In this document: piece by piece, positions 4,750-52,692 of the stretch
How the letters are laid out: every line of letters starts with the position of its first letter
How positions within the stretch are numbered: position 1 is the stretch's first letter
Origin: Ignatzschineria larvae DSM 13226
Lineage (GTDB): Bacteria > Pseudomonadota > Gammaproteobacteria > Cardiobacteriales > Wohlfahrtiimonadaceae
DNA length: 64,000 nt
Assembly: GCF_038500265.1 (NCBI RefSeq)
Contig: NZ_CP150637.1
Location: forward strand, 2,001,501 to 2,065,500
Direction of reading: 5' to 3'
Notes under the pieces: model-generated
The model's input: only the letters and a program-made list of their open reading frames with translations
Told to the model about the DNA's origin: nothing
Database searches by the model: none
Program-made: the position numbers and the translations under genes

Positions 4750-4784
4750 CCCCAAGAGATCACAAATAAACTCTTGGGGTTTTT
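4750..4784 (+). terminator. Rho-independent terminator of fabI
   Basis: CCCCAAGAG (4750-4758) and CTCTTGGGG (4771-4779) form a perfect nine-pair stem followed by TTTTT. It is placed 69 bp after the fabI stop. Confidence 0.9.
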
Positions 4785-4841
4785 ATTTTATTTCAATAAG
4801 TTATTTTAATTAACTCATTGCAAACTGATAGTTGTCATTCT

Positions 4842-5012: not shown

Positions 5013-5041
5013 TTGACAAGGTAAGTAATAACGACTATGAT
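5013..5041 (+). promoter_or_regulatory. Near-consensus sigma-70 promoter of a candidate sRNA
   Basis: A perfect -35 TTGACA (5013-5018), an ideal 17-bp spacer and -10 TATGAT (5036-5041, five of six). The predicted start is about 5047-5049. No open reading frame follows before the terminator at 5101-5130, so the promoter most likely drives a short non-coding transcript. Confidence 0.75.
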
Positions 5042-5046
5042 ATGCA

Positions 5047-5130
5047 GGACGCTTGAGCAATCGAGCGTTCTCCTCCATATCCTCCTTTGGTGGTTATTTT
5101 GCCGACTCTTTTAGAGCTCGGCTTTTTTTT
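5047..5130 (+). ncRNA. Candidate small regulatory RNA, about 84 nt
   Basis: A short transcription unit with its own strong promoter and terminator and no coding potential. The 5' hairpin (5049-5068) is an eight-pair stem, ACGCTTGA/TCGAGCGT, closed by a GCAA tetraloop. Next come two CCTCC motifs (about 5072-5076 and 5081-5085) that are complementary to Shine-Dalgarno sequences; the second can pair with GGTGG. The 3' end is the terminator hairpin GCCGA...TCGGC followed by T8. Hairpin, anti-SD element and Rho-independent terminator are typical of trans-acting sRNAs. I do not recognise it as a known family (not 6S, RyhB or Spot 42), and targets are unknown. Confidence 0.65.
5101..5130 (+). terminator. 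Rho-independent terminator of the candidate sRNA
   Basis: GCCGA-CTCT, loop TTT, AGAG-C-TCGGC with a one-base bulge, followed by eight T residues (5123-5130). Confidence 0.85.
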
Positions 5131-5424: not shown

Positions 5425-6696
5425 ATGAAACAATCCCGACCTACATTATCTCGACTATTCAGTAGCTTTCTAATAGGAGTCAGTTTAATGACAACCTTGC
5501 ATAATCCGCTCTTTGCAGATGATCAATTAAATGTAGATCAAATGCCTCAAGCCCAACTAGTTCAAATGGATGCTTATCCTTTTCCTAGTTTAAGCGCTGC
5601 AAACAAAACTGAAGTGATGCACTATACAATGCCTTATCGCACAGGGGAAATGGCCAATGCAAGCGCGCTTCTTTTCTACCCTGCAACTGAAAAACCGCAA
5701 GAAGGTTGGAAAATTGTTGTCTGGACTCATGGAACTGTAGGTGTTGCTAATAACTGTGCACCGAGCTTACAACCCATTAATGATAACTTTAAAGTGCTTG
5801 CACAATCACTTTTAGATGCAGGTTATGTGATTGTTGCACCTGATTATGAGGGCTTAGGTCAACAGAGAATCCATCCTTACCTAAATCTCAAAAGTGAGGC
5901 TGATGCGGCCATCTATGCCGTCAATGCGTTAAAGGCAGCAAACCCTGATGATTTTCAAGGCGATTGGATGGTTGTCGGTCAATCTCAAGGCGGACAAGCG
6001 GCGATCGGTACGGCTGAATATGCGAATGATGATCCTTATTTCAAAGGAGCTGTCGCAGGCGCACCCGCTTCTAGTTTAGATTATATTATTGGTACTGTCG
6101 CACCGAAAGCCTTAACACAACTCGATCAAGCTGAAGCCAATGCCGGGATCCCTATGCCAGAACGTAACTCGCTTCACTCTTTTGCCACCCTTCTCTCTTA
6201 TGGCGCTTTTGTCGGGATCGGTATTAAGGCTGATCATCCTGATTTTGATTATGAATCACTCTTCTATCCTCGATCACAACCATTTGCTGCAAAAGCTGAA
6301 GATCATGAGAATCAACCGGGACTTTGCCTCAATGAATTACGAGAACTCTGGAAAGCAGATATCCGCGCATTTTTAGCCGAAGACCCGAATCATCAATTAA
6401 CTGATTACCCTGGCATTAATATCGATATCTTTGAGCATAATCCAGTATTACAAGAGTTCTTCAAAATTAGCCAACCGGGCACACAGCGTATTGATAAACC
6501 GCTTCTAATTATCCAAGGAGAAAAAGATACCAATGTTCCGGCCAGCGTAACAACTATCCTTGCTGAACGATTGAAATCATTAGGCTCAGAAGCAGTAAAT
6601 CTTGTCATCGTTCCTGAGGCATCACATCAAGAAGCTATTGTTTGGGAGAATGATCGTGTCGTTGAATTTGTCAAATCAATAATGCCTGCAAAATAG
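5425..6696 (+). CDS. Secreted alpha/beta-hydrolase (lipase/esterase-like)
   Basis: Predicted exported hydrolase of 423 residues. It starts with a Sec-type signal peptide (basic MKQSRPTLSRLF, hydrophobic FLIGVSLMTTL, likely cleavage near LFADD). The mature part has the alpha/beta-hydrolase triad elements: nucleophile elbow GQSQGG, acid loop GEKDTNVPA and a C-terminal SHQEA histidine. WTHGTVG is a plausible oxyanion-loop segment. Overall it resembles the secretory-lipase and secreted-esterase group, but the substrate cannot be read from sequence. It is a single-gene unit between the candidate sRNA and a bidirectional terminator. A possible Fur box lies about 90 bp upstream. Confidence 0.8.
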   Translation: MKQSRPTLSRLFSSFLIGVSLMTTLHNPLFADDQLNVDQMPQAQLVQMDAYPFPSLSAANKTEVMHYTMPYRTGEMANASALLFYPATEKPQEGWKIVVWTHGTVGVANNCAPSLQPINDNFKVLAQSLLDAGYVIVAPDYEGLGQQRIHPYLNLKSEADAAIYAVNALKAANPDDFQGDWMVVGQSQGGQAAIGTAEYANDDPYFKGAVAGAPASSLDYIIGTVAPKALTQLDQAEANAGIPMPERNSLHSFATLLSYGAFVGIGIKADHPDFDYESLFYPRSQPFAAKAEDHENQPGLCLNELRELWKADIRAFLAEDPNHQLTDYPGINIDIFEHNPVLQEFFKISQPGTQRIDKPLLIIQGEKDTNVPASVTTILAERLKSLGSEAVNLVIVPEASHQEAIVWENDRVVEFVKSIMPAK

Positions 6697-52386: not shown

Positions 52387-52432
52387 TAAGATCATAATCG
52401 ACCTGCAGAGGGATTCTGCCGATCCATTATTC

Positions 52433-52527
52433 GCCACTTTCCTCCGCTAGTATTAACTAGATCAGGTTCTAAGAGTCCCGAAGTACCACTTCGATCTCAG
52501 CTGTTCATAACAGCACCTCTAGGGGAA
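52433..52527 (-). promoter_or_regulatory. TPP (THI-box) riboswitch
   Basis: On the minus strand the conserved THI elements appear in order: GGTGCTG, GAACAGCTGAGATCG, ACTTCGGGACTCTTAGAACC, TGATCTAGTTAATACTAGCG and GGAGG. CTGAGA and ACCTGATC are the pyrimidine- and pyrophosphate-sensing cores. It lies 65 bp upstream of the tenI start and should shut down the operon when thiamine pyrophosphate is plentiful. Confidence 0.95.
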
Positions 52528-52692
52528 TATTGTCTGCGCTATGGCACTGATAAAAAGGTGTATCCTCTACCTATCAGCGTACAATGCGCAATTTGTAATT
52601 CTGTTTGTAATACGATCAATATCGCGTTGAATCATCGAGTATAGAAGATCTTCTGACAATGGGCAACTCTCTTTTCTAAAGAGAGAGTCAAT

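Follow-up and report, generated by a model that had tools for sequence, protein, structure and literature searches.

Relationship of a conserved small RNA with two anti-Shine-Dalgarno sites in Ignatzschineria larvae to the RF02278/S17 family

Introduction

A short region between fabI and an alpha/beta hydrolase gene in the genome of Ignatzschineria larvae DSM 13226 has the outward features of a small RNA gene. The question raised by this locus is whether it is a genuine, free-standing unit, whether it represents a new kind of sRNA, and what such an RNA might do. Here we address the question within the window, i.e. the whole 64,000-nucleotide stretch of DNA that was analysed, in the genomes of the order Cardiobacteriales, and in wider samples of the class and phylum. 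All positions are those of the window, and all features of the sRNA lie on the plus strand.

Anatomy of the locus

The promoter (5013-5041) can be read directly in the sequence. It consists of a -35 hexamer TTGACA (5013-5018) and a -10 hexamer TATGAT (5036-5041) separated by a 17-nt spacer, and 11 of the 12 consensus positions are matched. The exact string occurs once in the 64 kb; with one mismatch allowed the same class has 2 matches versus 0.67 expected. Taken by itself, then, the promoter carries little evidential weight. TTGAC[A/G] is found at the same place in nearly all homologues, and a TATNAT-like hexamer is found at the -10 position throughout the order. Transcription would start about 5 nt past the -10 box and end at the T8 terminator, and the putative unit of about 85 nt (5046-5130) was delimited from the -10 box and the T-run, respectively.

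The unit begins with a predicted 5' hairpin of 8 pairs and a GCAA loop, ACGCTTGA-GCAA-TCGAGCGT (5049-5068). This is followed by Site 1, the first anti-Shine-Dalgarno motif (CUCCUCCA, 5070-5077), and by a small predicted middle hairpin, CC-U-CCA / UGG-U-GG (5072-5093), whose loop holds the second anti-Shine-Dalgarno motif, Site 2 (CCUCCUUU, 5081-5088). The two CCTCC motifs contained in these sites are at 5072-5076 and 5081-5085, and the arrangement CCTCC-N4-CCTCC occurs once in the 64-kb window versus 0.05 expected. A U-rich linker, UUAUUUU (5094-5100), is a candidate Hfq site by its likeness to known Hfq-binding modules. The intrinsic terminator (5101-5130) has a stem GCCGA...TCGGC (5101-5122) and a T8 run (5123-5130). 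A consensus terminator scanner made no call at 5101-5130, although the terminator is plain in the sequence and its form is kept across the order, where the stem persists with altered letters. The fold of the 87-nt unit has a predicted energy of -31.3 kcal/mol (z = -4.4), and no shuffled sequence was as low. The promoter, the eight-pair GCAA hairpin, the two CCTCC motifs and the T8 terminator claimed in a preliminary description of this locus were all found in place when checked against the sequence.

Conservation across Cardiobacteriales

The unit was found in 29 out of 40 related genomes by DNA search, and the covariance model R1 detected it as a single copy in 29 of the 32 genomes of Cardiobacteriales. 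R1 matched every genome of families f1 and f3 but one (the exception is an 80% complete genome), and the same search did not find the sRNA in G018 and G020, the sole two genomes of families f2 and f4. Both of the latter carry hfq while the sRNA is absent, which suggests that it was lost or never gained there.

The homologues have a 24-nt core, CTCCTC[C/T]ATATCCTCCTTTGGTGG, which is identical in 29 out of 29 genomes of the order except for the one C/T base. Thus, Site 1 is invariant in these genomes apart from that base, while Site 2 is invariant both there and in the named beta- and gammaproteobacterial homologues among the matches listed. Within the genus the identity of the core is 100%, that of the 5' hairpin 96% and that of the terminator 95%, as compared to 49-58% in the DNA on either side. 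Conservation is the strongest evidence beyond chance and, at the level of sequence comparison, it settles the reality of the unit: the sRNA gene is real and deeply conserved. The preliminary description had staked its proposal on the hairpins and CCTCC motifs being conserved in relatives, and the candidate passed this test strongly; its view of the locus as a self-standing sRNA gene that carries anti-Shine-Dalgarno motifs is supported. The anti-Shine-Dalgarno reading is well supported since the core is near-identical in 29 genomes while flanks and neighbours change, and since the pairing of the 5' hairpin is kept.

This hairpin is unbroken in all 29 loci even though its letters vary (ACGCTTGA/TCGAGCGT, ACGTTTGA/TCAGACGT, ACATCTAG/CTAGATGT, ACATC/GATGT); because the stems in the 29-locus comparison were fitted, the percentages of pairing are biased towards high values. 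When the genus and one neighbour were aligned without gaps, one pair of the 5' hairpin showed a double change (C-G to U-A), three pairs showed a change in a single partner, and every cell was paired; in slid controls of this alignment, pairing over the whole structure falls to 25-48%. Judged from these alignments, the covariation is real but thin. The middle hairpin has no covariation support within the genus because its pairs never vary; its predicted pairing draws on the energy calculation and on an analogous stem in relatives, in which both CCAUC/GAUGG and CCACC/GGUGG are seen. RNAalifold on the broad alignment A2 returned just 4 pairs and no covariation, a poor yield that is due to terminators and site spacing that do not align, and model R1 is therefore mostly a sequence model.

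A further observation concerns the promoters. In most Cardiobacteriaceae sRNA promoters (L018-L023, L026, L028, L029) the string TTGACGCANYGCARCA, a possible regulator site, starts in the -35 box and extends into the spacer, some 50 nt ahead of the core. Among the homologue promoters compared it was not seen in the window's genus nor in the Cardiobacterium loci L024, L025 and L027.

Mode of action

It is instructive to compare the general features of this sRNA with those of characterised RNAs. S17 of Bordetella pertussis depends on Hfq. Its short form uses either Site 1 or Site 2 to base-pair with ribosome-binding sites; S17 represses BP2158 through Site 1, as confirmed by compensatory mutations, and matches are present in 70 out of 92 affected genes (PMC11722255). 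The window sRNA is like S17 in some respects. Firstly, S17 has two sites that pair with ribosome-binding sites and are single-stranded near the 5' end of its short form (PMC11722255). Secondly, both have a nearly invariant core over many species, a terminator, and an hfq gene in the genome; in one Bordetella genome (L081), at least 21 of the 25 core letters agree with those of the window. There are also differences: S17 is a 190-nt RNA that is cut by RNase E to 67 nt, whereas the promoter of the window sRNA stands directly before the short form, and S17 responds to BvgA, while no such control is evident for the window sRNA.

NmsRA and NmsRB of Neisseria (RF02877 is NmsRb) carry two anti-Shine-Dalgarno motifs in unpaired places, as does the window sRNA, but unlike it they form a tandem pair. 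RF02877 had no match in the window at E <= 10 in a permissive Rfam scan; the homologues from Bordetella and Achromobacter reach 36-39 bits with this model. NmsRA represses prpC, gltA and sdhC via its anti-Shine-Dalgarno motifs, and the targets of NmsR include prpC and TCA genes (PMC5362039). Overexpression of the double-hairpin RNAs of Burkholderia slows growth, silencing through their C/U-rich part has the opposite effect, and ncS27 slows both growth and respiration (PMC5688073). All these relatives, S17, the double-hairpin RNAs and NmsR, repress transport and catabolic genes via pairing to ribosome-binding sites. The sRNA described here is not a new kind and, by analogy, would work like S17, the toxic sRNAs and NmsR.

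We consider it highly likely that the locus encodes a trans-acting, probably Hfq-bound sRNA of the RF02278/S17 type that blocks the ribosome-binding sites of several mRNAs. In such an RNA of about 85 nt the 5' hairpin would protect the molecule, while Site 1 (CUCCUCCA, single stranded) and Site 2 (UCCUCCUUU, in the loop of a weak hairpin) would pair with purine-rich ribosome-binding sites. Pairing would stop the translation of several mRNAs, most likely those of genes with which the cell takes up and degrades carbon and nitrogen compounds. Blocking of ribosome-binding sites is the best explanation in view of the same two sites, the U-rich linker, the T8 tail, the presence of hfq in the genome and the characterised relatives. 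The window's genome has an hfq gene, as do 31 out of the 32 genomes in the order. The proposed transcription, Hfq binding, repression and type of target are extrapolated from the relatives.

An alternative that we find improbable is that the core is kept by protein or ribosome binding, i.e. that the RNA mimics the 3' tail of 16S rRNA (CCUCCUUU) and either sequesters a factor or competes generally for Shine-Dalgarno sequences, slowing growth as opposed to regulating chosen mRNAs. The 16S rRNA 3' tail carries CCUCCUUU, and Site 2 bears the same letters. The core varies less than either stem, which is more constraint than a single mRNA partner demands, and relatives slow growth on overexpression (PMC5688073, PMC5362039). 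However, overexpression of S17 had no toxic effect on E. coli in exponential phase, and S17 uses Site 1 to act on specific mRNAs (PMC11722255), and many targets with one common core would explain the same conservation. A still broader scheme would make the family an ancient class-wide translation regulator, whose invariant, 16S-tail-mimicking core across Gammaproteobacteria sensu lato acts both on chosen mRNAs and, by way of the ribosome or a common factor, on translation generally; we regard this as a long shot.

Candidate targets

Over 52 window genes, with starts chosen using Shine-Dalgarno pairing, the strongest pairing of the core falls between positions -30 and -15 relative to the start. 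It exceeds that of shuffled cores there and is below it elsewhere; this result is partly circular because of the way the starts were chosen. Complements of Site 2 with one mismatch number about 131 versus 46 for the reversed control (9 genomes, self-matches included), an excess for which Shine-Dalgarno sequences alone suffice. Among 14 non-self sites read in the window's genome the sole clear ribosome-binding site is that of aceE, CAAAAGAGGATA, and this putative site is the best target lead in the window's own genome. The same genome has a repeated element, AAGGAGGATTTTGGCGAAATG, that is a strong complement to Site 2. Its three copies lie within 13 kb of one another, each ahead of a short reading frame, and these frames resemble one another (G000:C1:978852, 983079, 991279).

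Wider ribosome-binding-site patterns in sister species gave genes of catabolism and transport, namely prpC, a TAXI-type solute receptor, an MFS permease, an amino-acid permease, an aldehyde dehydrogenase and a NapC-like cytochrome (named from reading the sequences), and no target gene was conserved in all genus genomes searched. In three sister species (L318, L338, G003:C1:2534109), prpC (2-methylcitrate synthase) has the ribosome-binding site AAGGAGGATATT, which is almost fully complementary to Site 2. This would be a striking parallel to NmsR and may serve as a lead. Followed across the order, prpC was rejected as a conserved target: the sites differ in four other species, and the gene is absent from the window's genome.

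Relationship to RF02278 and wider distribution

An Rfam scan of the window at gathering thresholds gave no match at the sRNA locus; the only match in the window was a TPP riboswitch at 52422-52530 on the minus strand (85.8 bits). With a permissive E-value the best match at the locus was RF02278 (Betaproteobacteria toxic small RNA), covering the full length of the model (1-64) with 27.9 bits (E 4e-4, 151-nt query), which is below the gathering cut-off of 50. The preliminary description had held that the sRNA matches none of the known families. This has to be revised, given the full-length RF02278 match and the intermediates that join the sRNA to confirmed members. The RF02278 score is 31.3 bits for Wohlfahrtiimonas, 34.6 for Cardiobacterium hominis, and only 31-35 bits over the members from Wohlfahrtiimonas, Cardiobacterium, Thiodiazotropha and Thioalkalivibrio, as opposed to 69-73 bits on the Bordetella, Achromobacter and Burkholderia sequences that carry CUCCUCCA and CCUCCUUUGGUGG.

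The members of RF02278 in Burkholderia cenocepacia (ncS03, ncS05, ncS27/bdhR1, ncS62) have Site 1 (CUCCUCCA), the loop motif, the GGUGG closing arm and the terminator in common with the window sRNA. The layout of the RF02278/S17 family, i.e. two C/U-rich anti-Shine-Dalgarno sites, of which the second occupies the loop of a hairpin with a GGUGG closing arm, and then a terminator, is thus found here. The window sRNA differs in a shorter spacer between the sites (ATAT), in the extra 5' hairpin inside the transcript, and in being single-copy, as compared to three to five copies per genome for RF02278. Another model, RF02837 (anti-hemB, Burkholderia RNA 7), has a similar C/U-rich loop and terminator and scores 22.1 bits in the window, but its score is under that of RF02278 and its long insert is missing. 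The Burkholderia RNA ncS35 was also considered as a relative and rejected, as it gave no Rfam match and is confined to Burkholderia.

A pattern scan of named genomes, with 0-3 letters allowed between the two sites, returned at least 120 stretches. Among the matches listed the core comes in a version CTCCTCCACCCTCCTCCTTTGGTGG with close forms (Bordetella, Achromobacter, Cupriavidus, Ralstonia, Pandoraea and others), a version CTCCTCCATCCTCCTTTGGTGG (Thiocapsa, Thioalkalivibrio, Sedimenticola, Thiothrix, Arenicella and others) and the Cardiobacteriales version CTCCTC[C/T]ATATCCTCCTTTGGTGG; in many of these matches Site 1 is immediately preceded by an inverted repeat, and each of the aligned ones ends in a terminator. 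Intermediates in beta- and gammaproteobacteria thus provide sequence continuity with accepted RF02278 members. The class as defined in GTDB takes in the old Betaproteobacteria. In 274 genomes sampled from across this class, RF02278 was found in 82 at E <= 0.001, just 2 of them above the cut-off, and R1, built from both groups, in 76 at E <= 1e-5. A phylum-wide sample had 7 positive genomes out of 299, all within the class, the share of this sample outside the class not being given. In one genome three weak RF02278 matches lie in tandem about 150 nt apart (G292:C3:217943-218301), which suggests sibling copies.

Convergence of two unrelated C/U-rich anti-Shine-Dalgarno sRNAs onto the same layout appears very unlikely to us. 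Anti-Shine-Dalgarno motifs are simple and arise easily, the sRNA is below the RF02278 cut-off, and its central letters differ (ATAT versus ACCCTCC). However, the common letters exceed the anti-Shine-Dalgarno motifs, with CUCCUCCA and then CCUCCUUUGGUGG in the same order, followed by the U-rich linker and terminator, and intermediate forms of the core occur in many lineages. From its sequence, the sRNA is best placed in the RF02278/S17 family, where it forms a divergent branch in gammaproteobacteria, even though it is below the Rfam cut-off.

Genomic neighbourhood

The sRNA is adjoined by fabI and, downstream, by the alpha/beta hydrolase gene (5425-6696), all on the same strand. The sRNA is beside fabI in genus g4 and at most loci of the window's genus, while other genes are found there in genus g2 and family f3. 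Since the neighbours differ between genera, the sRNA is a free-standing unit. That it might be a cis-acting leader or attenuator of the hydrolase gene, or the 3' end of the fabI transcript, as its position between these same-strand genes could suggest, is hardly credible, since it has a promoter and a terminator of its own, fabI has a separate terminator (CCCAAGAG...CTCTTGGGG-TTTTT, about 4752-4785), and the changing neighbours on both sides in other genera of the order exclude a leader or 3'-UTR role as a general function. A minus-strand gene, for which AAGGAGGATATG resembles a ribosome-binding site and start, was also considered and rejected: the spacing is 2 nt, both the promoter and the terminator belong to the plus strand, and the reading frame is lost between genera because their hairpin lengths vary.

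Implications

S17 and the "toxic" sRNAs have been described as betaproteobacterial. The presence of the core in Cardiobacteriales, Chromatiales-like and Thiotrichales-like genomes indicates that the family is far older and wider than its record suggests, and most gammaproteobacterial members are unannotated because they are below the Rfam cut-off. This class-wide span goes beyond the published descriptions in the literature that we searched, and an earlier report elsewhere is possible. With hosts this distant from one another, comparison can be used to test which targets are conserved and why the core is invariant. For Ignatzschineria larvae itself, this is the first evidenced sRNA regulator that we found in the literature searched.
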